Below, in pieces: positions 27,711 to 42,559 of a DNA stretch of 43,167 nucleotides. Under the pieces are notes generated by a model, which saw only the letters and a program-made list of their open reading frames with translations, had not been told where the DNA came from and did not search any database. The DNA is from Eubacterium sp. GTDB taxonomy: Bacteria; Bacillota; Clostridia; Lachnospirales; Lachnospiraceae. The first letter of the stretch is position 1. Each line of letters starts with the position of its first letter. The stretch lies in contig JAFRGW010000050.1 in the NCBI GenBank assembly GCA_017433615.1, positions 1 to 43,167 on the forward strand, written 5' to 3'. The translations under genes and the position numbers were made by a program.

Positions 27711-27726
27711 GTTAGTTAATATAAAC
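27711..27726. promoter_or_regulatory. Shared dyad at the apbE promoter
   Basis: GTTAGTTAATATAAAC is identical over 16 bases to 29135-29150 before the Tp47-like gene. It contains the dyad TAGTT-N6-AAC(t)A and a TATAAA -10-like box (27720-27725). CTCTGGTAG also occurs near both copies (27685-27693 and 29154-29162). Confidence 0.6.
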
Positions 27727-27743
27727 AAAGGGTTTGGCGTACA

Positions 27744-28973
27744 ATGATTCAGGTTATTAAAAAAGGGATGATTGTTGGGATGGTAGCTGCCTCGGTAATT
27801 TTTACCGGATGTGGAAATGCGGCAGAACCGGCGGCAGGCAGCAGTGCGGCAGAAGCTAATGCAGACAGTGGTGCAGCAGAAATAAATACAGGCAGCAGTG
27901 CTGCTTCATCCGGTACAGCCTCGGCAGATGAAAATACAGAAGATACGGTAGAAACAAATTCAGATGCAGAGAATTACGAACTCCTCACCCGCGAAGTCTT
28001 TGCTATGGACACTTACATGACATTCAGCGCCTACGGAGAAGATGCAGAAGCGGCGCTTGACGAGGCGGAGGAGGAAATTCTCCGGCTGGACCAGCTGCTG
28101 GCAGCAGAGTCGGAAGACAGCGAGGTGGCGAAGCTCAATCAGAATGGCGGCGGACAGCTTTCGGATGACACAGCGTACCTGATTGAGCGGTCGATTGCCC
28201 TGAATCAGGAGACAGACGGTGCATTTGAGATCACAGTTTATCCGGTCAAGCAGGCGTGGGGCTTCACAGATGAAAATTACCGGATTCCTTCAGACGAAGA
28301 ACTGGCGGAACTTCTTCCGCTTGTCGGTTCGGAGCAATTAGAACTGGATGCTGAAAATAAAACAGTCGCCTATCAAAAAGACGGTATGAAAATTGATCTC
28401 GGCGGCATTACAAAAGGCTATGCTTCCAGCCGCCTGACAGATATTTTTATGAAGCACGATGTGCAGGGAATGATCAATCTCGGCGGAAACGTGCAGGTAT
28501 ACGGTCCGAAACCGGACGGATCCGACTGGCGTGTCGCGATCCAGGCGCCGGAGCGGACAGAGGAGAACACCCTGCCGTGGCTCTCACAGGCGGCATCCGG
28601 GAGTGCGTCACTTGCAGGCCTTGACTACATCGGTGTTTTGGAGACAAACAGCCAGGCGGTTATCACCTCCGGCGGGTACGAGCGTTATTTTGAAAAAGAC
28701 GGCGTCTATTATCATCACATCATTGATCCGAAGACGGGATATCCGTCCGATGCAGATCTCGTATCTGTCACCATTGTCAGTGAGGACGGTACACTTGCGG
28801 ACGGTCTCTCTACGTCCATGTTTGTATTAGGGCTGGACAAGGCGTCGGAAATCTGGCGTGCACACAGCGATGAATTTGATATGATCCTGATGGATACAGA
28901 CGGAAACCTTTATGTGACAGAGGGGATTAAAGATCAGTTTACCAGTGATCTGGAAATCCACTGGATCGAGTAA
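27744..28973 (+). CDS. apbE: FAD:protein FMN transferase (ApbE), lipoprotein
   Basis: A 409-residue enzyme that moves FMN from FAD onto Thr/Ser of exported proteins carrying the SGAT motif. A lipobox (IFTGC, Cys about 23) and Ala/Ser/Glu linker place it on the outer face of the membrane. ApbE signatures are EVFAMDTYMTFSAYG, GMKIDLGGITKGYASSRL, MINLGGNVQVYG, HHIIDPKTGYPSDADLVSVT and DGLSTSMFVLG with the Mg-binding Asp. It lies upstream of two FMN-binding-domain proteins with six target motifs, so it surely modifies them. Its promoter shares a dyad with the next gene. RBS AAAGGG. Confidence 0.95.
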   Translation: MIQVIKKGMIVGMVAASVIFTGCGNAAEPAAGSSAAEANADSGAAEINTGSSAASSGTASADENTEDTVETNSDAENYELLTREVFAMDTYMTFSAYGEDAEAALDEAEEEILRLDQLLAAESEDSEVAKLNQNGGGQLSDDTAYLIERSIALNQETDGAFEITVYPVKQAWGFTDENYRIPSDEELAELLPLVGSEQLELDAENKTVAYQKDGMKIDLGGITKGYASSRLTDIFMKHDVQGMINLGGNVQVYGPKPDGSDWRVAIQAPERTEENTLPWLSQAASGSASLAGLDYIGVLETNSQAVITSGGYERYFEKDGVYYHHIIDPKTGYPSDADLVSVTIVSEDGTLADGLSTSMFVLGLDKASEIWRAHSDEFDMILMDTDGNLYVTEGIKDQFTSDLEIHWIE

Positions 28974-28989
28974 TTTCAACGCAGAGGGG

Positions 28990-29057
28990 GGCGCAAGACG
29001 TCCAGTGGACGTCTTGTTCTGCGCCAACCGAAGCGGAGCGTAGACATCGCGATTGAA
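28990..29057 (+). repeat. Hairpin plus dispersed repeat, copy 4 (partial)
   Basis: A hairpin (GGCGC/GCGCC outer, AAGACGTCC/GGACGTCTT inner, 28990-29025) starts 16 bases after the apbE stop and may end its transcript, though no T-run follows. It is then followed by GACATCGCGATTGAA (29043-29057), the core of the dispersed repeat. Copy 2 also has a hairpin before the core. Confidence 0.5.
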
Positions 29058-29121
29058 CAGTTGTGAGCTGGAGCCCGAAAAAATGTACGTGAAAAAAGAT
29101 CACAAAAAATGCAAAAAAAAC

Positions 29122-29150
29122 TTGACTGAGAGGCGTTAGTTAATATAAAC
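29122..29150 (+). promoter_or_regulatory. Promoter and dyad before the Tp47-like gene
   Basis: TTGACT (29122-29127), 16 bp, then TATAAA (29144-29149). The 16-base GTTAGTTAATATAAAC at 29135-29150 overlaps the -10, and with the following TACC forms TAGTT-N6-AACTA. A related TTAGTCTTAACTA sits downstream at 29252-29264. This is a typical layout for repressor control. Confidence 0.65.
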
Positions 29151-29192
29151 TACCTCTGGTAGCAAAATAACTGCAGATAGCTATGCGAAATC

Positions 29193-29247
29193 AAGAAAGC
29201 AGATTCCGCGAAAGGAGACGAGGGCAACCTCGTCCTGCTTTTTCTTT
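29193..29247 (+). terminator. Leader terminator (possible attenuator)
   Basis: GACGAGG (29217-29223) pairs with CCTCGTC (29228-29234) around GCAA, and AAAGCAG upstream can pair with CTGCTTT, giving a stem ending in CTGCTTTTTCTTT. It lies between the promoter at 29122 and the gene start at 29413, so most transcripts could stop here unless relieved. I do not recognise a known riboswitch in 29150-29215. Downstream to 29412 there is a GTGA-N7-TCAC dyad (29286-29300) and nothing else. Confidence 0.6.
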
Positions 29248-29412
29248 AGAGTTAGTCTTAACTACCTGCGATTTTTTGCAAATTCGTGATTAATATTCAC
29301 AAAAAGAAGGAGAGATGAATCGCAAACGGCTGTGACAACAGAAGTGTAACCGATTCACGTATCCGACAAACTGAGAAACCTGTAAAGTATTTTTAAACGA
29401 GGAGAAGTGAGA

Positions 29413-32400
29413 ATGAAAAAAGGCACAGTAAGCAAGTTGCTCTCCATCACACTGGCCCTCTCAATGACGCTGGGCAGCGGATCCATGGCCGTATTTGCGG
29501 ACGATGATGCACCTGCAGCAGAGGAAATTGAGACAGCAGTCGTGGTTGAGGAAGAGGCGGATGCTGCAGAACCAGTTGCGACTGAAGAAGCAGAAACTGC
29601 AGAAGAAACGACCGAGGCAGATACAGTAGTCGAGACTGTTGTTCAGCCGGAGGCAGAAGCAGTTTCTGAAGAAGCAGCTCCGGTTGAAGAAATTGCTGTT
29701 GAGACAGCAGCTGCAGATGAGGCGACCGAGGTTGAGGTTGTCGCTGACGAAGAGACAGAGCAGGAAGAAGCTGCGCTTGCAGAGGAAGAAGTACGTTATG
29801 TAATGATGAATGTTCCTTATATGGAATTCTATCAGGCCTATGGTTTAACAGATCAGGCAGTCTGGGAAGTAGAGGATGGCATTGATGCAGTTTCTACTGC
29901 TACTGAGTCCAAGTTTACGCAGGCTGATGGCCTGGCGAAAGGCACCTATAATAATGGTAAGTACATAATGGGAGTGAAAATCCCGGTTGCAGTAGATGCC
30001 GAAGCATACAAAACGCTTGAAGGCGATAAGAAATACTCATTCACAGATCTTGATACGGTACCTGAAGTATACAGTACACTTTCAATCACAGATGGAAAAT
30101 ATTCGTTCAGCCAGTTTCAGGAAGCAACCATTGATAAGAGTTATTTGAAAGTGAAGGATCTCGACCTTAATGGTGGGTATGGAGATTACGAAGTGATGCT
30201 CGGAGGATTTAATACGTCAGCAAGTGACGGACATCCGAAAGGCATTCAGACAGGTGAAAATTCAGCAATAGAAAAATATACCATTTATGGAGCATATCTT
30301 ACCACTGCAGCAGGTGGCAAATATGGTATGACAACACTTGAAAACCTGTGGTTTGGAACAAGCCATCCGGAAATCGCTGTTGCATGGTCCGTTAAAGGAG
30401 GACAGGGTTTAAAACGCGGACATGGAAAGGGTGATGCGTTTTATCAATTTGATTTAAACGGGAAAACAATTACAGGTATGACTGTTATTACAAGCATTGG
30501 CGTAATAGACGTACCCTGTGAGAATGGCTCCATTGAGCTGCCAGCATATTATGCAGGTGATACCAGTTCTTTGACTTATTCGGCAACTGGCGGATCTAAG
30601 GAAGTTTCTATTTCTGGATTACCTTCAGACTTTGGGACGAATCCGACAGCTACGGTTTCTTACAAATCTAGAAAGACAAACGTATATCTTGCCAAAGATG
30701 CGCAGATTAGCGATGGGAAAGTAGTTCTGGATGAAGAAATTCAAGATGGCACAAGTTATACATTGATCATTAACGGAAATGGAAATGCAATTATTCGAGG
30801 ACTGGCAAGTTCTATATCTGAAGATCAAAAGACAGAACTTCTTGATTTGATTGAACAGGCAAAGGCTGCAACCGGATATGATACGAATCAAGATCTTCAG
30901 GAACATGTAAAAGAAGCAGAGGAGATGATTGAAAATCCGGCTGTTGAATCTACAGTTGCAGCATCTTTAATAGATGAACTGAAGGCGAAAATTAAGAAGA
31001 CTTATCCGATCCTTGTTATTTCAGAGGCTAAAATCAGAGGTCAGGTTCTTGATATTGAATTACAGGATGTTAAATTCAACGAACTTAAGAACGCTGTTTA
31101 TACACTAACATATGGAACAGGAAAGAGTACAAAGACTTTTGTAAGCGGAGCGCTTAGCAGCACATCCATTCAGCTCAGTGAGACACCGGAAGTCGGAACA
31201 ACGTATACACTGAAGATTACTAGTGATAACTATCAAGATGGTTCTGCAGAAGTCAAAGCAGAAGCAGTAACTGCGTTGAATTCTACTTCTGTCGGCGGAG
31301 TTATATATTTTTATGCTGATACTGAGAATGAAGCTGAGGATGCAACATATCAGGCATCAATCAAAAAAGGAAAAGGCGCATCAGCAACGACTACATTCTA
31401 TCACTATAAAAAGGGTGATTTGACATCGATTGATGGCAGTTCTATTTGTTATATCGTCGCAGCGGGTTCAACTGAACTTTCCGGCGAGCTTTATGGATAT
31501 GGCGAGGGAACAGAAACAACCTATAAAGAAGTCTATTCAAATCTTGGAATTGAGACAGATGCATCTTACGATGTTATTTCAAGCGCAACAAAATATACAA
31601 GCCATCATGCCGGCGACATCCCATCGCTTGTTTTGTTCGGAACCGATGCAAATGGTGACAAAGCAATCACAGGATTGAATCTTGGACGTGCACAGAAAAA
31701 AGTTGATGCGAAAGCATATGTTGAAGCAAGTATCCTTTCAGCAGCAGGTGTTGAATTAACTGGAGATCAGAAGGAGATTATTGAAGTACCTCTTAAAGTG
31801 AATCCGATGGAAGCGCCTGCAAAAGACATTAAGCCAGTGGCAGAAAAAGTAGAATATGCACTGAGCAAATATGGTGTAGGAGAATTCAAAATCACGCCTA
31901 AGGCTATTGAAGGATTTGTTCTTAAGGAGTACTGGAGTAATGTCTTTGCAGCAACCGTAAGTAATGGAACTGTAACAGTTGGAGCGGTTCACTGGGTTGA
32001 TCTGTATGGTGAAGCCGGTCATGACAACCTGGAACTTGAACTGAACAATGGCAAAGCATTGGCAACAAATGAACAGGAAGTCAACAGATATGCGGCATTC
32101 TTTGATGAATCCGGTTGCCTGAAGGCGGGCACATATACAATTACACTCTATGCAGAAGGATATGAGGACTTTAAGGTATCTGTTGAAGTCACGGCCGAAA
32201 AAGCGCAGGCATATGCTGCGAATGCATTGATTAAAGCTTTGAGTCAGAATGAATATAGTACAGCTGCAGAAGCACAGGCAGCAGTTGATGCGGCAAAGGC
32301 TGCATTCCAGAATCTGACAGTTGATCAGAAGGAACTACTGAAGGTCAAGGAAGATGACATTACGAAAGCCCAGGCTGCAGCAACTGCGCAGAAAGAAGCG

Positions 32401-32979
32401 GAAGACAAAGCAGCAGTTGAACAGGTAAAGACCCTGATTAATAAGGCAAATGAAAAATATGCTTCCTCTGACAAAGCGCAGGCTGCAGTCAATGCTGCAA
32501 AAGCTGCGTTCCAGAATCTGACTGAAGATCAGAAAGCTCTGCTTGGAAAAGAAGAAATTAAAGAACTGGAAAATGCTTTAAATAAAGCGCAGACCGCAGC
32601 AACTGCACAGAAAACAGCGGAAGTTAATGCAGCAAAGCAGAAAAATGAAAATAAAACAGACAACAAGAAGCAGACTGTCACAAAGCAGTCCCAGAGCCTG
32701 AAGAAGCTGACACCTGCCACCAAGAAGCTGAAAGCATCCAAACTGAAAAAGAAAAAACAGACTTTCAAGCTGAAAGCAAAGATCAACGGCAAAGGAAAAG
32801 TCACCTTCAAGAAAGTTTCCGGCAACAAGAAGATTACGATCAGCAAAGCCGGAAGAGTAACGGTGAAGAAGGGACTCAAGAAGGGGACCTATAAGGTCAA
32901 AGTCAAAGTGTCAATCGCAGCAACAGGAAATTATAAAGCAGCGAGCGCGACAAAGACCATTAAGATCAAAGTGAAATAA
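29413..32979 (+). CDS. Tp47-like large surface protein with Lys-rich Ig-like C-terminus
   Basis: A 1188-residue exported protein. A signal peptide (LLSITLALSMTLGSGSMAVFA) is followed by an acidic Ala/Glu-rich region to about 125. The next 600 or so residues resemble Treponema Tp47 (penicillin-binding Tp47 domains): YVMMNVPYMEFYQAYGL with GIDAVSTATESK, EAKIRGQVLDIELQDV with TPEVGTTYTLKI, and later HWVDLYGEAGHD with LKAGTYTITLYAEGYEDF, all with counterparts in Tp47. Two DAVSTATES/DVISSATKY motifs (Thr164, Thr726) look like FMN-attachment sites with Gly replaced. Two tandem helical repeats (AVDAAKAAFQNLT, about 935-1075) and a basic Ig-like domain end it, probably binding the cell wall. RBS GAGGAG. 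Its place between apbE and FMN proteins suggests a redox partner. Confidence 0.82.
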   Translation: MKKGTVSKLLSITLALSMTLGSGSMAVFADDDAPAAEEIETAVVVEEEADAAEPVATEEAETAEETTEADTVVETVVQPEAEAVSEEAAPVEEIAVETAAADEATEVEVVADEETEQEEAALAEEEVRYVMMNVPYMEFYQAYGLTDQAVWEVEDGIDAVSTATESKFTQADGLAKGTYNNGKYIMGVKIPVAVDAEAYKTLEGDKKYSFTDLDTVPEVYSTLSITDGKYSFSQFQEATIDKSYLKVKDLDLNGGYGDYEVMLGGFNTSASDGHPKGIQTGENSAIEKYTIYGAYLTTAAGGKYGMTTLENLWFGTSHPEIAVAWSVKGGQGLKRGHGKGDAFYQFDLNGKTITGMTVITSIGVIDVPCENGSIELPAYYAGDTSSLTYSATGGSKEVSISGLPSDFGTNPTATVSYKSRKTNVYLAKDAQISDGKVVLDEEIQDGTSYTLIINGNGNAIIRGLASSISEDQKTELLDLIEQAKAATGYDTNQDLQEHVKEAEEMIENPAVESTVAASLIDELKAKIKKTYPILVISEAKIRGQVLDIELQDVKFNELKNAVYTLTYGTGKSTKTFVSGALSSTSIQLSETPEVGTTYTLKITSDNYQDGSAEVKAEAVTALNSTSVGGVIYFYADTENEAEDATYQASIKKGKGASATTTFYHYKKGDLTSIDGSSICYIVAAGSTELSGELYGYGEGTETTYKEVYSNLGIETDASYDVISSATKYTSHHAGDIPSLVLFGTDANGDKAITGLNLGRAQKKVDAKAYVEASILSAAGVELTGDQKEIIEVPLKVNPMEAPAKDIKPVAEKVEYALSKYGVGEFKITPKAIEGFVLKEYWSNVFAATVSNGTVTVGAVHWVDLYGEAGHDNLELELNNGKALATNEQEVNRYAAFFDESGCLKAGTYTITLYAEGYEDFKVSVEVTAEKAQAYAANALIKALSQNEYSTAAEAQAAVDAAKAAFQNLTVDQKELLKVKEDDITKAQAAATAQKEAEDKAAVEQVKTLINKANEKYASSDKAQAAVNAAKAAFQNLTEDQKALLGKEEIKELENALNKAQTAATAQKTAEVNAAKQKNENKTDNKKQTVTKQSQSLKKLTPATKKLKASKLKKKKQTFKLKAKINGKGKVTFKKVSGNKKITISKAGRVTVKKGLKKGTYKVKVKVSIAATGNYKAASATKTIKIKVK

Positions 32980-33000
32980 TAAATGGAAGCATGATGTCAT

Positions 33001-33109
33001 GCATCCTGACAGGATGCTGACGCGGCGAAGCACGGGCACAGGAAACGGTGCCCGTGCCGCTTTGCGTCATGCCTGAAATGATATTTTTGCCTGAAAATGT
33101 CATTTCAGA
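33001..33109 (+). other. Three consecutive hairpins between surface-protein genes
   Basis: GCATCCTG/CAGGATGC (33001-33017), then TGACGC ... GCGTCA enclosing GCACGGGCAC/GTGCCCGTGC (33018-33069), then TGAAATGA-T-ATTTT with its complement (33074-33108). The middle one is very stable but has few Ts after it. They probably limit read-through from the Tp47-like gene or protect its 3' end. Confidence 0.55.
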
Positions 33110-33186
33110 CATGATGAAGCCTCAGGCAGATCTCGAAACTTGTACCTGATCGAAGATTGTAATTTATTACACAGGAGTATCCAGAC

Positions 33187-35781
33187 ATGAAATTAAACAC
33201 TTCTGACAAAACAACTGCATTCAGCAAGAAGAAGCTGTCCTTTATTTTGCCGGCCGTTCTGACGGGTCTGCTTGTGTTTGACATGATCCCGCAGACACAG
33301 GTGACACTGCAGGAAATCCCGGAGCGTCTTGCGCTGGTCGAGGAGGTGGCTGCGGATACCGGATCAGATACATCCGGCCAGTCTGAAGCGGGCGGCCTTA
33401 AGCGGGCAGAAAACGAAAAAGAGGATGGTGAGCAGGCTATTGGCGATTACGAGGATGGCGTTTATACCGGAACATCACAGGGCTACGGCGGACCGGTCAC
33501 TGTTGAAGTGACGGTAAAGGATGGTCAGATTACAGATGTAAAAATTGTCTCAGCAGCCGGCGAGACCGAGCCGTATTTTTCGCTTGCGAAAACGGTCATC
33601 GACCAGGTGATGCAGAAGCAGACATGGGAAGTGGACGTGGCTTCCGGCGCAACCTACAGCTCCCGCGGCATTCTCGGTGCGATCCAGAATGCGCTGACCG
33701 GTGAAACAGTAGAGAATGCTGCTGCGCCAAAAGTCGAACCGCAGGGAACAACACAGCAGGACGCGTATAAAGATCCTGACGCCTATAAGGACGGTACCTA
33801 CACCGGAACGGCACAGGGATTTGGCGGACCGATTACGGTGAAAGTTGTCGTTAAAAACGGAAAAATTGATTCTATATCAATTGAGAGTGCCGGCGGAGAA
33901 ACGGCTTCCTACCTGAACCGCGCAAAAGGCGTTATTTCCAGCATCCTGAAAAAAGGATCTCCGAATGTTGATACAGTCTCGGGTGCTACGTACAGCTCAA
34001 CGGGCATCATCAACGCGGTGAAGCGTGCATTGTCTAAAGCTTCCGCAGACGGAAGCAAAAAGAATACGAAGGAAAAGAAGCAAAAGAAATCTAAAAAAAC
34101 CGCGTCTACGAGTACGCCTGCAAAGCAGGATACTTACACAGAACCTGCCGCTTACAAAGACGGGACTTATTATGGTACGGCAGATGGATTTGGCGGAGAA
34201 ATCAAAGTGAAAGTCGTAATTTCAGGTGGAAAGCTGACTGGCATTACGATTGAAAATGCAGATGGTGAAACAGCCGAATATCTGACAAAGGCGAAAGCAG
34301 TGATCAATACAATGCTGCAAAAAGGCTCGCCTAATGTGGACAGTATTTCCGGAGCAACCTATAGCTCAACCGGAATTATCAATGCTGTGAAGCGTGCAAT
34401 GAGTCAGGCAGCGATGACAGGAGGCACGAATCAGAGTGCTGCGGTCACACAGGCCGCACCTGTTAATCCGACGGTTCCTTCTGATCCGTCTGTAATGCCG
34501 GCTGAAACGTTGAAAGACGGCGTCTATACCGGAACCGGAGAGGGATTTGGCGGAGATATTGTTGTACAGCTGACAGTGAGCGGAGGCCGTATGACAGATA
34601 TTCAGATCACTTCAGCAGAAGATGAGACACCAGCGTATTTCAACCGCGCAAAGGGACTTGTAGCGACGATCCTGAGCCGGCAGAGTACAGACGTGGATAT
34701 GGTGTCCGGTGCAACATATAGTTCCCGGGGTATCATTGAAGCAGTGAAGAAAGCGGCTGCACAGGCTTCCGGAACAGAAGAGAAACCAGATGATGGGTCC
34801 GAAAATCAGGGAAGCGGCGGTCATGAAGGCGGAGGTGCCAGCGGCGGTACAGGAGAATCGGGTAAGATCACGTACAAGGATGGTACATATACCGAAAGAG
34901 GCTGGTGCGTAGAAGAGTACAGGATGTTTGAATATGAAATCATAGTTCAGATCACAGTGAAAGACGGAATAATAAAAAGCTGCAATGTTGACATAGGAGA
35001 AGACAAAAGTGAAGATTGGGAGGAAAATGAGTATTTCATCGACCATGCGGTCAATGGTGCCAAAGGAATCCCGGCTCAGATTGTTTCAAAGCAAAGTGCA
35101 GATGTTGACGGTGTAAGTGGTGCTACATACACATCGAATACCATCAAAAACCTTGCTGCCGTTATTCTGAACAAGATCAAAGTTACCGCCGCAGAAGAAA
35201 CCAAAGAATCATCATCGGCTAAAAATGCCAAAGCAAAAGGATCTGACAAAGAATCTGCAGAACTGGCGGCAGATGCGCAGGATGATGTCAGCAAACCAGT
35301 TGAGGCTGGTGACGAAACAGCGCAGGCTGAGGACCCGGCTGCTGATCAGAGTGAGAGTGATTCTTCAGTGGATGGCAACACAGCTGATCAGAACAATGAA
35401 GCTGAGGAAACCACAGAAAAACAGAGCGTAGAAGATTCGGAAACTGAAAATTCAGAACAGTCTGATGAGAAGGCGTCCAGGGAAGAAGAGACGAAAGCAA
35501 AGGGCGAGACCGAAAAGAAGAAAGCCGAGGAAGAGGTAAAGAAAAAAGCTGAGGCCGAAGCAAAAAAGAAAGCTGAAGAAGAAGCCAAAAAGAAGGCTGA
35601 AGAAGCAAAGAAAAAAGCCGAGGAAGAAGCAAAGAAGAAAGCTGAGGAAGAGGCGAAAAAGAAAGCAGAGGCCGAGGCCAAAGCAAAAGCTGCAGAGGAA
35701 GAAGCCGTAGCCAAAGCCAAAGCTGCTGCGCAGGCGGCACAGGCTGAAAAAGCGGCTGCGGATGATGAAAAGGACACATAA
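33187..35781 (+). CDS. Five-FMN-binding-domain extracytoplasmic redox protein
   Basis: An 864-residue protein held by one N-terminal hydrophobic segment (LSFILPAVLTGLLVFDMI). Five FMN_bind domains follow, each DG(T/V)Y-x-GT...GFGG...DxxSGATYSS; the predicted flavinylated threonines are 156, 268, 391, 510 and 647. The fifth domain is divergent: it lacks GFGG and has an acidic insert with SGATYTS. Lys-rich or Gly-rich linkers join the domains. Residues about 650-770 are acidic and disordered, and about 770-864 are KKAEEEAKKK-type repeats likely to form a long single alpha helix. Flavin chains of this kind carry electrons outside the membrane; ApbE should load them. RBS AGGAG. No LPxTG or lipobox is seen. 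Confidence 0.92.
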   Translation: MKLNTSDKTTAFSKKKLSFILPAVLTGLLVFDMIPQTQVTLQEIPERLALVEEVAADTGSDTSGQSEAGGLKRAENEKEDGEQAIGDYEDGVYTGTSQGYGGPVTVEVTVKDGQITDVKIVSAAGETEPYFSLAKTVIDQVMQKQTWEVDVASGATYSSRGILGAIQNALTGETVENAAAPKVEPQGTTQQDAYKDPDAYKDGTYTGTAQGFGGPITVKVVVKNGKIDSISIESAGGETASYLNRAKGVISSILKKGSPNVDTVSGATYSSTGIINAVKRALSKASADGSKKNTKEKKQKKSKKTASTSTPAKQDTYTEPAAYKDGTYYGTADGFGGEIKVKVVISGGKLTGITIENADGETAEYLTKAKAVINTMLQKGSPNVDSISGATYSSTGIINAVKRAMSQAAMTGGTNQSAAVTQAAPVNPTVPSDPSVMPAETLKDGVYTGTGEGFGGDIVVQLTVSGGRMTDIQITSAEDETPAYFNRAKGLVATILSRQSTDVDMVSGATYSSRGIIEAVKKAAAQASGTEEKPDDGSENQGSGGHEGGGASGGTGESGKITYKDGTYTERGWCVEEYRMFEYEIIVQITVKDGIIKSCNVDIGEDKSEDWEENEYFIDHAVNGAKGIPAQIVSKQSADVDGVSGATYTSNTIKNLAAVILNKIKVTAAEETKESSSAKNAKAKGSDKESAELAADAQDDVSKPVEAGDETAQAEDPAADQSESDSSVDGNTADQNNEAEETTEKQSVEDSETENSEQSDEKASREEETKAKGETEKKKAEEEVKKKAEAEAKKKAEEEAKKKAEEAKKKAEEEAKKKAEEEAKKKAEAEAKAKAAEEEAVAKAKAAAQAAQAEKAAADDEKDT

Positions 35782-35787
35782 CAGAGA

Positions 35788-36297
35788 ATGAAGTACCAGA
35801 GTTTTATTACAAAGCTGCTGGCGCTGGCACTGATCTGCGGGATTCTGTATCACTACCAGAATATCGCGGCAGCCCGTGCGGCAGTTGTGGCTGAAAATGA
35901 AGCCGCGGTTGCGGAAGTTGAGGCCTATAACAGGGAGATTCAGGCGGAGAATCAGCGCCGGGAAGCAGCGGCGGCCGGAGGATCCGGAACAGCGGGATCA
36001 GAAACCGGTGCGGGAACAGCATCGATGTTTAAAGATGGAACCTATGAGGGCACCGGAACAGGCTACGGAGGTCCGATTACTGTTTCCGTTACGATTGAAA
36101 GTGATGTGATTACAGCGTTTGAGGTATTGTCCCATGACGGTGAAGACCCGGCGTATTATGCGCAGGCGGAAGCACTTACGGAGACCGTTCTGCAGCAGCA
36201 GAGCACAGATGTAGATACAATATCCGGTGCAACGTTCAGTTCCCGCGGGATTCTGGAAGCGTTGAATGACGCGGTAGATAAGGCGGTGAACGGATGA
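35788..36297 (+). CDS. Membrane-anchored single FMN-binding protein
   Basis: A 169-residue protein: an N-terminal helix (ITKLLALALICGILYHY), an Ala/Glu coiled segment (about 28-62), a Gly/Ser linker, and one FMN_bind domain (KDGTYEGTGTGYGGPITVSV, DVDTISGATFSSRG) with predicted flavinylated Thr149. It starts 6 bases after the five-domain gene and overlaps the polyferredoxin gene by 4 bases (ATGA), so the three are one translational unit. With the polyferredoxin it resembles NosR/CprC split into two chains, and it should relay electrons from the membrane to the larger flavin protein. Confidence 0.93.
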   Translation: MKYQSFITKLLALALICGILYHYQNIAAARAAVVAENEAAVAEVEAYNREIQAENQRREAAAAGGSGTAGSETGAGTASMFKDGTYEGTGTGYGGPITVSVTIESDVITAFEVLSHDGEDPAYYAQAEALTETVLQQQSTDVDTISGATFSSRGILEALNDAVDKAVNG

Positions 36298-37343
36298 CCA
36301 GAACAGAAATCGAAAATGCCGTGCGGGAGGCCGCAGAAAAAAACACGGCTGCGGCAAAACGGATGTCAGAACCAGAGAAGAACGTAAATGTACCAGCCGG
36401 AAACAAGTTTGAGCAGAGCGGGGCGGAATTAGAACAAAGCGTTACAGAGGCAGTGAAGAAAAAACTGACGCCGGCGCAGCAGAAGATCCGGCGCAGACGG
36501 CAGAATGCGCTTGTCCGAAACATTGTTCAGCTTTTCTTTTTCCTGATGATGCCGGGTGCATTTGTGGCAGGCTTTTCCGGGGTGAAGAGTATTTTCCAGA
36601 AAGTTGCAGCAGGAAGCGTGCTGGAACTGGACAGCTTCGTCAAAGCATTGATCGGACTATGCATTTTCACAATTGTTTTCGGGAGATTTTTCTGCGGATT
36701 TGCATGCGCTTTCGGGACATTCGGCGATTTTGTCTACTGGATTTCCGGCCTGATCCAGAAGAAACTGTTTCGAAGAAAGAAGCAGTTCAGTCTGCCGGAG
36801 AAGTTTTCTCCCTGGCTGCAGAAAGTCAAGTTTCTCATACTGGCGTTAATCGTTGTTGCATGTGCACTGGGCGCATACGACAGCTTTAATCAATATAACT
36901 GGAATCCCTGGTCGGTATTTTCTTTTATCACGGCACTGCGGTTTGAATTGAGCGGTTATACCATTGGTATTGTGATTCTCATCCTGATCATTGCAGGAAT
37001 GGCTGTAAAAGAACGCTTTTTCTGTCAGTTCCTGTGTCCGATGGGGGCAGTCTTTGCGATTATTCCGCAGCTTCCGTTCGCGTGGCTGCAGAGAGATGCG
37101 GAGAACTGCCTGAAAAACTGCCGCGCATGTCAGACGACGTGTCCGGTTGATATCAAACTGGAGACGGACGGATTCCGTAACGGTGAATGTATCGGGTGCG
37201 AAAAATGTGCCGGTATCTGTCCGAAAGGCAATCTGACGCGCTGGGACCGGATGCTTCTGAAAAATGAAATACTTCCGGTTATAATCCGGGCGGCAATTCT
37301 GTTCCTTCTGGGGGCTTATCTCGGGCTTTGCAGATTTTTGTAA
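36294..37343 (+). CDS. NapH/NosR-like membrane polyferredoxin
   Basis: A 349-residue protein. The first 70 residues are hydrophilic and cytoplasmic. About five helices follow, carrying the paired motifs FGRFFCGFACAFG and KERFFCQFLCPMGAVFAI (C-x3-C, as in NapH, NosR and CcoG). At the C-terminus are two ferredoxin-type clusters, NCLKNCRACQTTCPVDI and CIGCEKCAGICPKG, then a last helix. It should pass electrons from a cytoplasmic or quinol donor to the FMN proteins outside. In the first CxxxC box the usual Pro is Ala. The last gene of the flavin cluster. Confidence 0.92.
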   Translation: MTRTEIENAVREAAEKNTAAAKRMSEPEKNVNVPAGNKFEQSGAELEQSVTEAVKKKLTPAQQKIRRRRQNALVRNIVQLFFFLMMPGAFVAGFSGVKSIFQKVAAGSVLELDSFVKALIGLCIFTIVFGRFFCGFACAFGTFGDFVYWISGLIQKKLFRRKKQFSLPEKFSPWLQKVKFLILALIVVACALGAYDSFNQYNWNPWSVFSFITALRFELSGYTIGIVILILIIAGMAVKERFFCQFLCPMGAVFAIIPQLPFAWLQRDAENCLKNCRACQTTCPVDIKLETDGFRNGECIGCEKCAGICPKGNLTRWDRMLLKNEILPVIIRAAILFLLGAYLGLCRFL

Positions 37344-39711: not shown

Positions 39712-39737
39712 ATGTACATCTCTCGGAGGTGGAAGTC

Positions 39738-40055
39738 ATGGGTTTCAGAGAAGACGTAAAAAGGATTAAAGCGCTCACGGATGAAAACCGCCTCGCCATC
39801 ATGCTTGCACTCCAGCATGGCGAAAAGTGCGGATGTGATCTGTTAGAAGAGTTGAAAATCACGCAGCCGACTCTGTCTCATCATATGAAGATACTCGCAG
39901 ACAGCGGCCTTGTTGATTATTACAAAGAAGGAAAATGGATGCACTATTCTATATCAGCAAAAGGCGTAAAAGAGTTTCGGGATATGATCAGCTCTTACGC
40001 CAGATGTGATTGTGAAATAGACGATAGCGTATCATGCGGGTGCGAAAGTAAGTAA
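39738..40055 (+). CDS. arsR: ArsR-family metalloregulatory repressor
   Basis: A 105-residue winged-helix repressor released by arsenite or a similar ion. The helix-turn-helix is LKITQPTLSHHMKILADSGL. A CxC pair sits in EKCGCDLLEEL, at the place of the classical ArsR alpha-3 CVCDL site, and extra cysteines (CDCEIDDSVSCGCESK) end the protein. ATG 39738 follows CGGAGGT. First gene of the operon; it should repress its own promoter. Confidence 0.92.
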   Translation: MGFREDVKRIKALTDENRLAIMLALQHGEKCGCDLLEELKITQPTLSHHMKILADSGLVDYYKEGKWMHYSISAKGVKEFRDMISSYARCDCEIDDSVSCGCESK

Positions 40056-40074
40056 TATCGCATATCGATAATAC

Positions 40075-40138
40075 ATAGGCAGTCCTACGGGATTGCCTAT
40101 ATAAAAGCCTATTACATTGATACATTTGAATGTATCAA
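40075..40138 (+). promoter_or_regulatory. Hairpin and palindrome between arsR and acr3
   Basis: ATAGGCA/TGCCTAT with TCC/GGA (40075-40100) is a hairpin. A perfect palindrome follows at 40117-40138: TTGATACATT, TG, and the complement AATGTATCAA. The latter could be a second regulator site or an mRNA structure that sets the ratio of ArsR to transporter. Confidence 0.5.
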
Positions 40139-40155
40139 ACTAACGGAGGTTCATT

Positions 40156-41193
40156 ATGCCAAAACAGGAAAAAGGAATCAATACATTTCAGCGGTATCTG
40201 TCTGTATGGGTGCTTCTGTGTATGGCAATAGGTGTTCTGATCGGACACTTTCTGCCGATGATACCAAACGCGCTGGATAAACTGCAGATTGCCGGTATTT
40301 CAATCCCCATCGCCATCCTCATTTGGGTGATGATCTATCCCATGATGATGAAGGTGGACTTCCAGAGCGTAAAACAAGTCGGAAAGAATCCGAAAGGATT
40401 GTTTATCACATGGATCACTAACTGGCTCATCAAGCCTTTTACGATGTACGGGATTGCATATCTGTTCCTCTTTGTTGTGTTTAAAGCCTTTATTGCGCCG
40501 GAGCTTGCAATAGAGTATCTTGCTGGAGCCGTTCTTCTTGGTGCAGCGCCATGCACAGCGATGGTCTTTGTATGGAGTACGCTGACAAAGGGAAATCCGG
40601 CTTACACCGTAGTACAAGTGGCGACGAACGATCTTATCATCCTTGTAGCGTTTGTGCCGATTGTAAAGTTCCTTCTTGGCGTTTCCAATGTATCGGTTCC
40701 CTACAGCACGCTTTTTGTGAGCATCTTCCTCTTTGTAGTCATCCCGCTTGTGGGCGGTATAGTAACAAGGCTTACAGTTATCAGAAATAAGGGAAAAGAA
40801 TACTTTGAAGAAACGTTCATCCATAAGTTTGATAATGCAACTACGGTCGGCCTGCTGCTCACACTGGTGATTATTTTCAGTTCGCAGGCAGAGGTGATTC
40901 TTTCGAATCCAATCCATATTGTGTTGATTGCGGTGCCGCTGATCATACAGACATTCCTGATCTTCTTTATCGCTTACGGGGCAAGCAAACTGTTCAAGCT
41001 GCCTCATGATATTGCGGCACCGGCTGGAATGATCGGAGCGTCAAACTTCTTTGAACTGGCAGTGGCAGTTGCGATTGCACTCTTTGGAACAACATCACCG
41101 GCTGCTCTTGCAACTACAGTAGGTGTGCTGACAGAAGTTCCGGTCATGCTGTTGCTTGTAAGGATCGCAAATAAGACGAAGGCGAGGTTTTAG
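40156..41193 (+). CDS. acr3: Arsenite efflux transporter, Acr3 family
   Basis: A 345-residue, ten-helix exporter of arsenite. Signatures are GILIGHF-like VLIGHFLPMIPNALD, the conserved Cys in LLGAAPCTAMVFVWSTLTKG, and APAGMIGASNFFELAVAVAIALFG. Full family length. The ribosome-binding site is CGGAGG. The permease gene follows by 2 bases. Confidence 0.95.
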   Translation: MPKQEKGINTFQRYLSVWVLLCMAIGVLIGHFLPMIPNALDKLQIAGISIPIAILIWVMIYPMMMKVDFQSVKQVGKNPKGLFITWITNWLIKPFTMYGIAYLFLFVVFKAFIAPELAIEYLAGAVLLGAAPCTAMVFVWSTLTKGNPAYTVVQVATNDLIILVAFVPIVKFLLGVSNVSVPYSTLFVSIFLFVVIPLVGGIVTRLTVIRNKGKEYFEETFIHKFDNATTVGLLLTLVIIFSSQAEVILSNPIHIVLIAVPLIIQTFLIFFIAYGASKLFKLPHDIAAPAGMIGASNFFELAVAVAIALFGTTSPAALATTVGVLTEVPVMLLLVRIANKTKARF

Positions 41194-41195
41194 AA

Positions 41196-42194
41196 ATGTG
41201 GACTTTTATACAGGATCAAATTCTCGGCATGAAATGGCTGAACGATCTGATAGGCAGCATACTTAGCCTGCTTGGGCTTGATACCGGCACAAAGATTGGA
41301 GCCAGCGTTCAATTTTTCATCTACGACACGATAAAGATTACTGTGCTGCTGTGTGTGCTTATATTCCTGATCTCTTATATCCAGAGTTTCTTCCCTCCGG
41401 AGCGGAGCAGAAAGATCATGGGAAGATTTCATGGAATAGGCGCAAATATCGTTGGAGCCCTTCTTGGTACGGTCACGCCGTTTTGCTCCTGCTCATCCAT
41501 TCCGATCTTCATGGGTTTTACAAGCGCCGGACTTCCGCTGGGTGTGACGTTCTCTTTCCTGATCTCATCACCGATGGTGGATCTGGGCAGCCTCGTTCTT
41601 CTCATGAGTATTTTTGGAGCGAAGATCGCCATCGTGTATGTGGTGATGGGGCTTGTGATTGCAGTGATTGGCGGTACACTGATTGAAAAACTGCATATGG
41701 AAGATCAGATCGCGGACTTTATCCGAAACAATAACAGCAGCGTGGATATCGAATCTCCGGATCTGACCGTGAAAGACCGACTGACCTACTCAAAGGATCA
41801 GGTACTGGACACATTAAAAAGGGTATTTCCATATATTCTGGTGGGTGTTGGCATCGGTGCGCTGATCCATAACTGGATTCCGGAGAGCTGGATACAGACA
41901 GTGCTTGGAAGCAAAAATCCATTCGGTGTAATTCTCGCAACACTGATCGGTGTTCCGATGTACGCGGATATCTTCGGGACGATTCCCGTGGCGGAGGCAC
42001 TCCTTTCAAAGGGAGCACTTCTGGGTACGATCTTGAGTTTTATGATGGCTGTCACCACGCTGAGTCTGCCATCCCTCATCATGCTGAAGAAGGCAATCAA
42101 GCCGAAGCTGATGGGAGCGTTTGTAGGCATCTGTACTGCCGGGATTATTATAGTCGGCTACGGCTTTAATATATTTCAAAATCTGCTTATTTGA
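41196..42194 (+). CDS. ArsP/DUF318-like permease
   Basis: A 332-residue polytopic permease (UPF0718/ArsP-type). The family motif TPFCSCSSIPIFMGFTSAGL with vicinal cysteines and SFLISSPMVDLGSL are present; the second half repeats the fold (GVPMYADIFGTIPVAEALL). Such permeases export organic arsenicals or other soft metals. It directly follows acr3, so methylated arsenicals are a sensible guess. Confidence 0.88.
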   Translation: MWTFIQDQILGMKWLNDLIGSILSLLGLDTGTKIGASVQFFIYDTIKITVLLCVLIFLISYIQSFFPPERSRKIMGRFHGIGANIVGALLGTVTPFCSCSSIPIFMGFTSAGLPLGVTFSFLISSPMVDLGSLVLLMSIFGAKIAIVYVVMGLVIAVIGGTLIEKLHMEDQIADFIRNNNSSVDIESPDLTVKDRLTYSKDQVLDTLKRVFPYILVGVGIGALIHNWIPESWIQTVLGSKNPFGVILATLIGVPMYADIFGTIPVAEALLSKGALLGTILSFMMAVTTLSLPSLIMLKKAIKPKLMGAFVGICTAGIIIVGYGFNIFQNLLI

Positions 42195-42208
42195 AGGAGG
42201 ATATGATC

Positions 42209-42559
42209 ATGGCACTGTTTGGTAAGAAAAAAGAAGAAGTAAAGGTGGAGCCCACCTGCTGCTGTGGAGGGTCGGAGGAAGTAAAAACTGAAGGTACTTC
42301 CTGCTGCGGAGAAAATGTCGATGGCGTCTGCTGCATCAAAGTGCTGGGTGCAGGCTGTAAGTCTTGTCATGAGCAATATGAGAATGCCAAGAAAGCTGTC
42401 GAGAATCTTGGACTGGATGTTGAGGTTGAGTACATCACCGATATGGAAAAAGTTATGAGCTATGGCGTTATGAGCATGCCTGCACTTCTTGTGAATGACA
42501 AGATCGTATCGGTTGGAAAGGTGCTAAAACCGAAAGAGGTTGAGAAGTTGTTGGCTTAA
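42209..42559 (+). CDS. Small thioredoxin-like redox protein with Cys-rich N-terminus
   Basis: A 116-residue protein. Residues about 38-116 are the small thioredoxin (redox-active disulfide protein 2) type: CCIKVLGAGCKSCHEQYENA with the CxxC, and YGVMSMPALLVNDKIV with the cis-Pro. The first 38 residues add CCCGG, SCCGE and VCC, giving vicinal cysteines fit to bind arsenite or another metal. ATG 42209 has AAGGAGG at the right distance. Probably reduces or delivers arsenic to the permeases. Confidence 0.88.
   Translation: MALFGKKKEEVKVEPTCCCGGSEEVKTEGTSCCGENVDGVCCIKVLGAGCKSCHEQYENAKKAVENLGLDVEVEYITDMEKVMSYGVMSMPALLVNDKIVSVGKVLKPKEVEKLLA

Follow-up and report, generated by a model that had tools for sequence, protein, structure and literature searches.

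A stretch of 43,167 nucleotides from Eubacterium sp., a member of the Lachnospiraceae (assembly GCA_017433615.1, contig JAFRGW010000050.1; the whole stretch is called the window here), carries a row of five genes at 27711..37343 of the + strand. Four of them would make up a flavin-based electron transfer system working outside the cytosol, and the fifth encodes a large surface protein related to Tp47, an antigen of the syphilis bacterium Treponema pallidum. An earlier note on this DNA, made from its letters alone (the original prediction), had described such a row on one strand, and all five genes were recovered in that arrangement with Pfam support.

The first gene, apbE (27744..28973), encodes a flavin adenine dinucleotide:protein flavin mononucleotide (FMN) transferase (Pfam ApbE, E=9.7e-82) with a hydrophobic N-terminus and a lipoprotein-like Cys23. 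The Tp47-like surface protein follows at 29407..32979. It has 1190 amino acids from the GTG at 29407, and the 1188 amino acids given earlier are right for the ATG at 29413. Next is a multi-FMN protein (33187..35781) with one N-terminal hydrophobic segment and five FMN_bind stretches (Pfam E=1e-58), at 33481-33696, 33817-34035, 34186-34401, 34543-34758 and 34936-35160. A single FMN_bind protein (35788..36297; Pfam FMN_bind, E=3.3e-18) has an N-terminus which is hydrophobic by eye and below the cut-off in a simple transmembrane scan. The last gene (36294..37343) encodes a NapH/NosR-like membrane polyferredoxin (Pfam Fer4_5, E=5.1e-12, 46 bits against a 22-bit cut-off) with six hydrophobic segments and two four-cysteine motifs, at residues 272-283 and 299-309. 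The single-FMN gene starts after a gap of 6 bases behind 35781 and overlaps the polyferredoxin gene by 4 bases (36294-36297), the two junctions which had been predicted. The other gaps are 433 bases between apbE and the Tp47-like gene and 207 bases between that gene and the multi-FMN gene, so the five genes probably form two or three transcription units and are unlikely to be one operon.

The six predicted SGAT motifs were also counted: five copies of D-x-x-S-G-A-T lie in the multi-FMN protein and one in the single-FMN protein, and by sequence each agrees with the ApbE-substrate motif D-x-x-[ST]-G-A-[ST]. With more than one FMN_bind domain, the third protein falls by domain count into the class of multi-flavinylated proteins. 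The cluster also has the makeup of a NapH-like flavinylation system, in which a membrane iron-sulfur protein of PF12801 adjoins ApbE and FMN_bind genes, and the parts expected of the outward flavin-based chain proposed earlier are present. Under the curated cut-offs of NCBIfam the polyferredoxin does not pass as NapH, NosR or CcoG proper (75.3 of 213 bits for NapH/MauN, 73.2 of 234 for NapH, 51.4 of 1000 for NosR), and scores this far below the cut-offs make it NapH-like rather than NapH. The FMN proteins likewise do not pass as RnfG (31.2 and 36.6 of 102 bits) or NqrC (14.2 and 13.4 of 144 bits). PADLOC gave no match for the four cluster proteins submitted, all except ApbE.

Tp47 relationship and conserved neighbourhood

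The label "Tp47-like" of the original prediction is correct, yet the relationship is visible solely by comparison of profiles built from homologs and is missed by Pfam. At E<=1, Pfam gave no PBP-Tp47_a match (PF14889; gathering score 25 bits) for the window protein or in its genome, and a phmmer search against the sequences of the PDB did not show the Tp47 relation of the surface protein. Homologs from other genomes have weak PBP-Tp47_a scores under the cut-off (1e-3 and 3e-3). An iterated profile started from the window domain (29797..30771, +) recruited canonical Tp47 members, and two groups resulted: type I, the window type (alignment A3, 40 rows), and type II, the Pfam type (A4, 38 rows). 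The two profiles matched each other in hhalign with a probability of 97.4 and E=9e-12, and the type II profile matched T. pallidum Tp47 (1o75) with E=2e-28; these two matches make the Tp47 label right at the superfamily level. Directly against 1o75, the type I profile reached E=2.5e-4 with a poor alignment. By these sequence profiles, the window protein belongs to a sister group of PF14889 which lies under the Pfam cut-off.

At its end the surface protein has a basic domain (32659..32976, +; isoelectric point 11), common to other large proteins of the genus. Other large open frames end in the same domain, in the window's own genome (G000) and in two genomes of the same genus (G001 and G003), and it is possibly a surface or wall attachment domain. 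Many homolog matches of the whole surface protein cover this basic domain only, and not the Tp47-type domain. A Shr-like hemoglobin-interacting domain was over its cut-off in two Tp47-type proteins (L042, L195), slightly under it in L038 and under it in the window; as a weak lead, this could mean heme iron.

The co-occurrence of the gene families in related genomes had been suggested as a check, with the lack of a conserved neighbourhood as a ground for refutation, and the neighbourhood turned out to be conserved. G001 and G003 share the gene order of the window. In 299 genomes of the family, the polyferredoxin (called at E<=1e-30) was found in 31 and Tp47 (called by the type I profile at E<=1e-10 or by PF14889 over its cut-off) in 32, with both in 23 where 3.3 were expected (Fisher p=1.2e-20, uncorrected for relatedness). 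Tp47 and polyferredoxin lie on one contig, at most 6 kb apart, in 21 of the 23; in the remaining two they are on two short contigs (G163) or at two separate places, with the polyferredoxin cluster elsewhere (G230). A flavin-system gene stands beside Tp47 in 30 of the 32 Tp47 genomes, G230 and G163 being those where it does not. PF14889 itself was over cut-off in 12/299 genomes, and in the surroundings fetched for 11 of these, flavin genes adjoin Tp47 in 10; the exception, G270, has a second Tp47-type gene on a different contig (L203), within a complete flavin cluster.

Nine genomes have Tp47 and no polyferredoxin. In seven (G024, G100, G115, G180, G205, G212 and G325) Tp47 directly adjoins a membrane protein ending in FMN_bind. 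These membrane parts are mutually related (E of 1e-26 to 1e-40 to that of G024), and Pfam Ferric_reduct is over its cut-off in G325, below it in G212 and unreported in the other five, which makes "ferric-reductase-like" a label with moderate evidence behind it. The other two have multi-FMN genes (G081) or apbE (G236) beside Tp47. Across these genomes, Tp47 thus has two different membrane modules for electron transfer as partners, and some Tp47 proteins hold an FMN_bind domain in the same chain. Conversely, 8 of the 31 polyferredoxin genomes had no Tp47 call. Three of these were inspected, with G078, G109, G118, G137 and G279 left out: the ortholog in G003 is shortened and lacks the first Tp47 domain, and the stretches fetched for G086 and G099, of which L208 is only 9 kb long and at a contig start, contain flavin genes and no Tp47.

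A scan of named genomes with a profile (A2) gave 54 loci; the genera include Blautia, Coprococcus, Faecalibacterium, Anaerobutyricum, Collinsella and Eggerthella. Within the stretches covered, one or more of apbE, FMN_bind and polyferredoxin were present in 49/54 and all three in 31/54; among the 41 stretches of at least 17 kb the counts were 40 and 26. None of the three was found in L100, L103, L117, L132 and L142. The named genomes and the family genomes are not independent sets, because several records are identical (L092 and G031, for example). In a phylum-wide draw PF14889 was found in 0/398, and such a draw does not show absence.

Operator-like dyads shared with iron genes

An operator-like dyad lies before apbE (27712..27729, +; one mismatch to TTAGTTAATATAAACTAA) and another before the Tp47-like gene (29136-29153), where it covers the second hexamer of a promoter-like pair, TTGACT/TAAACT (29122..29153, +). 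In the scan, promoter-like pairs are no commoner than in shuffles. At three or fewer mismatches the dyad TTAGTTAATATAAAC matched the window four times (the two sites, each on both strands), against 0.01 expected. Over the whole genome, matches with one mismatch to the 18-mer are the two window sites only; the search at three or fewer mismatches was uninformative genome-wide (2+4 against 5+4 for a reversed-pattern control) and was set aside.

With the form TTAGTTANNNTAAACTA and at most one mismatch, the own genome has five sites (control 0), G001 seven (control 2) and G003 four (control 1). The five are placed before apbE, before the Tp47-like gene, before feoA-feoA-feoB (two sites) and before an ATP-binding cassette (ABC) ATPase with an FtsX permease. 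In G001 and G003 the sites are before Tp47 or apbE, before feoAB and before the same ABC transporter, as well as before an HMA-domain gene (G003) and at one unclear place (G001). An operator private to the cluster was therefore rejected. The shared promoter dyad claimed earlier does exist at 27712 and 29136, and it is not confined to the cluster. The ABC ATPase and FtsX-like permease under the dyad of feoAB (G000:C26; L189, 4013-7189) have counterparts in G001, G003, L125 and L135. A second apbE copy at a contig end of G001 (G001:C22, L190) has operator-like dyads before and after it; G001 may be a mixture of strains, because it is listed with 7% contamination.

The same dyad came up without seeding. 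When 5-mer dyads were enumerated upstream of 46 type II Tp47 genes, GTTAG-N6-CTAAC ranked first (15/46, against 14/578 other open reading frames), and the runner-up was TTAGC-N4-GCTAA (8/46 against 0/578). The 54 loci (1.0 Mb) hold 45 sites of the dyad and none of the reversed pattern; 32 of the sites precede a cluster gene by at most 300 bp, and others lie at transporters of the ABC/FtsX and ZIP kinds. In 11 whole family genomes the counts were 71 sites against 22 for the control. In L040, L061, L062, L063, L065 and L067 a looser form, with up to two mismatches, has sites at distances of 38 to 180 bp upstream of Tp47; in the AT-rich loci L042, L059 and L066 it is without excess.

The link to iron genes extends to the family. 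In the 11 family genomes a site lies at most 1.1 kb upstream of feoB in 6, a limit set after the distances were seen, and at the Tp47 region in 8, with both in 6 (the site counted for G270 is at its isolated Tp47 gene, and its flavin cluster has another). An operator-like site shared with feo genes, as expected of an iron regulon, is thus found in the genus and in 6/11 family genomes. In one genome (G324, L204) the order apbE-Tp47-FMNx3-FMN-polyferredoxin leads straight on to FeoA and FeoB; boxes precede Tp47, feoA and feoB, and an iron-dependent repressor gene lies 0.6 kb after feoB. FeoA and FeoB are also in the cluster's locus in Blautia glucerasea (L125), and an ABC transporter with a FecCD permease follows the cluster in G258 (L202). 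Such physical linkage is rare, as FeoB was found in 1/54 named loci and 1/38 other loci scanned. Genes of the iron-dependent-repressor family (PF02742) are present in 5/5 genomes of the genus. A dyad common to feoAB and a few other genes is a pointer to iron as the acceptor, and these shared control sequences, whose link to iron genes the original prediction overlooked, suggest a role in iron uptake.

The leader of the Tp47-like gene (29155-29270) contains a terminator-like hairpin (29217..29248, +). Hairpin and downstream block are kept in three genomes of the genus, and the fold has a z-score of -2.29, with 8/200 shuffles as good. The leader is possibly an attenuator or RNA switch; an Rfam scan of the window gave no family at its gathering score.

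Proposed function and alternatives

What the analysis itself shows is the genes with their motifs, the conservation of the neighbourhood, the homology to Tp47 and the operator-like sites in common with feo. Altogether these results lead us to suspect, with a probability of roughly 60%, that the cluster is an extracytosolic flavin-based ferric reductase, induced by iron starvation, which feeds Fe(II) importers for iron assimilation. In this bacterial family, Tp47-type proteins are a regular partner of the flavin system, whose purpose is most likely iron assimilation.

From these observations we infer flavinylation, the direction of flow, the acceptor, the identity of the repressor and the role of the Tp47-like protein, and the steps would be as follows. 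The threonines of the six SGAT motifs would receive FMN from ApbE. The NapH/NosR-like polyferredoxin would accept electrons that come from the cytosol or the membrane and move them across the membrane; the single-FMN protein would take them over with its FMN, and the multi-FMN protein would conduct them through the wall along its five FMNs. The outer partner, which presents or reduces Fe(III), would be the Tp47-like surface protein, and the Fe(II) produced outside would be imported by FeoB. DtxR-type proteins repress with Fe(II). With sufficient iron, a repressor of this type would silence apbE and the Tp47-like gene, and under iron shortage both would be turned on together with feoAB.

Several points weigh against this ferric reductase. 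The Tp47-like protein is without any known redox-centre motif. No dyads were found before the FMN-FMN-polyferredoxin genes in the window. Two genomes of the same genus (G002 and G004) have no operator site at one mismatch or fewer, where the control gave 2 and 1. Among the 11 family genomes, 4 have no or slight excess of dyads (G029 3 against 5, G186 4 against 4, G210 4 against 3, G259 4 against 3), and exact sites are absent at feoB in 5 and at the cluster in 3, to which the late choice of the 1.1 kb limit has to be added. Finally, some genes with the box are not iron-specific (ZIP, HMA, ABC/FtsX), so Mn or Zn is possible.

The Tp47-like protein might instead be a wall-anchoring or peptidoglycan-binding scaffold which positions the flavin wire and has no redox or metal role. 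T. pallidum Tp47 has penicillin-binding activity, and the basic C-terminal domain is common to other large surface proteins, both in keeping with such a scaffold. However, the Tp47 gene is the one which most often bears the iron-type box (GTTAG-N6-CTAAC upstream of 15/46, against 7/37 for apbE), the two-gene systems pair Tp47 with a small membrane FMN_bind protein which needs no wall-spanning wire, and some Tp47 proteins carry the FMN_bind domain in their own chain. A scaffold and nothing else is possible, and on balance we doubt it.

Another use of the same chain would be extracellular electron transfer which supports respiration or fermentation, onto a diffusible or solid acceptor (flavin, quinone, humic matter or an Fe(III) sink), with metal regulation merely adjusting it. 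Faecalibacterium is known for flavin-mediated electron transfer, and its loci L113, L118, L119 and L127 have Tp47 with FMN_bind genes. Such roles have also been proposed for multi-flavinylated proteins and NapH-like modules in the text of PMC8238504. The operator-like sites shared with feoAB and the linkage to feoAB and a repressor gene nevertheless accord with induction under iron shortage, a condition in which iron is of little use as a sink, and make this use unlikely. Least probable is control by a Mn- or Zn-responsive DtxR-family protein: the box does occur at ZIP and HMA genes and the DtxR family does include Mn sensors, whereas the best-supported other target is feoAB (in the own genus and 6/11 family genomes) and, of Fe, Mn and Zn, the redox-active one is Fe.

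The Tp47-type domain of the window protein contains an ApbE-like heptad, DAVSTAT (29884..29904, +), with a second one, DVISSAT (31570..31590, +), in a partial domain repeat. Neither agrees with the ApbE-substrate motif D-x-x-[ST]-G-A-[ST], as T or S replaces the glycine. The pattern D-x-[VIF]-[ST]-x-A-[TS] is almost invariant in Tp47-type domains: 47/47 type II segments have D-x-V-[ST]-R-A-T, 41/43 type I segments have the heptad with S or T in the place of glycine, and T. pallidum Tp47 (1o75) retains it as DAVSRAT. Across the same loci, 181 FMN_bind-type domains had G at the glycine position in 168 cases, R in 12 and S in 1, by an expression blind to T. One FMN_bind domain in G325, clearly positive in Pfam (44 bits against a cut-off of 22), has DAVSTAT as its site, as in the window. 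This domain (L197, 5681-7063) is in a two-gene Tp47 system, and no other FMN gene or apbE was seen in the 16 kb of the locus. In L060, L061, L062, L064 and L067 the last domain of the multi-FMN protein is of the FMN_bind type with D-x-V-[ST]-R-A-T, not SGAT.

In its passages on the motif, a review of ApbE (PMC12052999) gives the seven residues as sufficient and about 50% of flavinylation as kept after a change of Gly to Ala, and does not mention S, T or R. That the Tp47-type domain has the FMN_bind fold was rejected at the sequence level (hhalign probabilities of 0.9 to 6.5%, with the alignment confined to the heptad region), and RnfD gave no support for glycine-replaced heptads, as the RnfD of the own genome has DTVSGAT. 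Flavin on Tp47-type domains is possible. The heptads of both types, that of T. pallidum and the FMN_bind site of G325 also prompt a broader and rather speculative idea: Tp47-type domains may form a family which handles iron as the redox partner of flavinylated chains, the heptad may be a variant or former ApbE site, and syphilis Tp47 may be, by ancestry or to this day, an extracytosolic redox protein coupled to flavin. The native role of this antigen is debated, and the position of its relatives beside flavin electron-transfer genes in 30 of the 32 family genomes with Tp47 is a clue from genome context to the function of Tp47-family proteins.

Elsewhere in the window, an ArsR-type regulator, an SBF-family transporter, an ArsP-like permease and a thioredoxin-like protein are consecutive at 39729-42559, an arsenic or metalloid cluster.

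Comparison with known systems

The original prediction held that the inclusion of a Tp47-like protein was undescribed. Among the matches listed, the openly licensed PMC literature gave no description of a Tp47 link to flavin systems, iron or Lachnospiraceae, and that on Faecalibacterium electron transfer, on clostridial iron regulons and on flavinylation with iron gave no Tp47 link either. The word "tp47" is absent from the text of PMC8238504, whose supplementary tables may list such clusters without the name.

T. pallidum Tp47 is homologous to the type II proteins and keeps the heptad; the window protein differs in being a longer sister of type I within a flavin cluster. Flavin-based extracellular electron transfer of the Listeria type uses Ndh2, EetAB, FmnB and PplA. 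Of this gene set, only apbE (of the FmnB family) and FMN_bind proteins were seen at this locus, and the remaining genes were not searched for.

The text of Meheust et al. 2021 (PMC8238504) reports 2465 clusters of the NapH-like kind and as many as 13 sites in multi-flavinylated proteins, and it also covers iron assimilation linked to flavinylation through other modules. As here, its NapH-like flavinylation systems cluster apbE, an FMN-binding-domain protein and a PF12801 membrane polyferredoxin; the partners it names are enzymes for nitrous oxide, organohalides, nitrite and ethanol, whereas the present cluster has a Tp47-type protein in that place and a control sequence which also occurs at feo. 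Multi-flavinylated proteins (PMC8238504, PMC10339131) also have several FMN_bind domains per exported chain, and large wall proteins without annotation often accompany them. PMC8238504 calls the role of their clusters generally unclear, and an iron role is proposed here. In the iron systems of that paper (P19, PepSY-like, and MsrQ-like with VIT1), FMN-based outward transfer is likewise proposed to reduce iron for uptake, through other membrane modules and importers, in contrast to the polyferredoxin and Feo, with Tp47, of the present proposal. If the proposal is true, it would give a concrete function, iron assimilation, to widespread multi-flavin clusters, and the gut genera concerned would include Blautia, Coprococcus, Faecalibacterium, Anaerobutyricum and Collinsella. 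Systems of this class are already known, as NapH-like flavinylation with multi-flavinylated proteins; what differs is the Tp47 partner and the proposed iron-type control.

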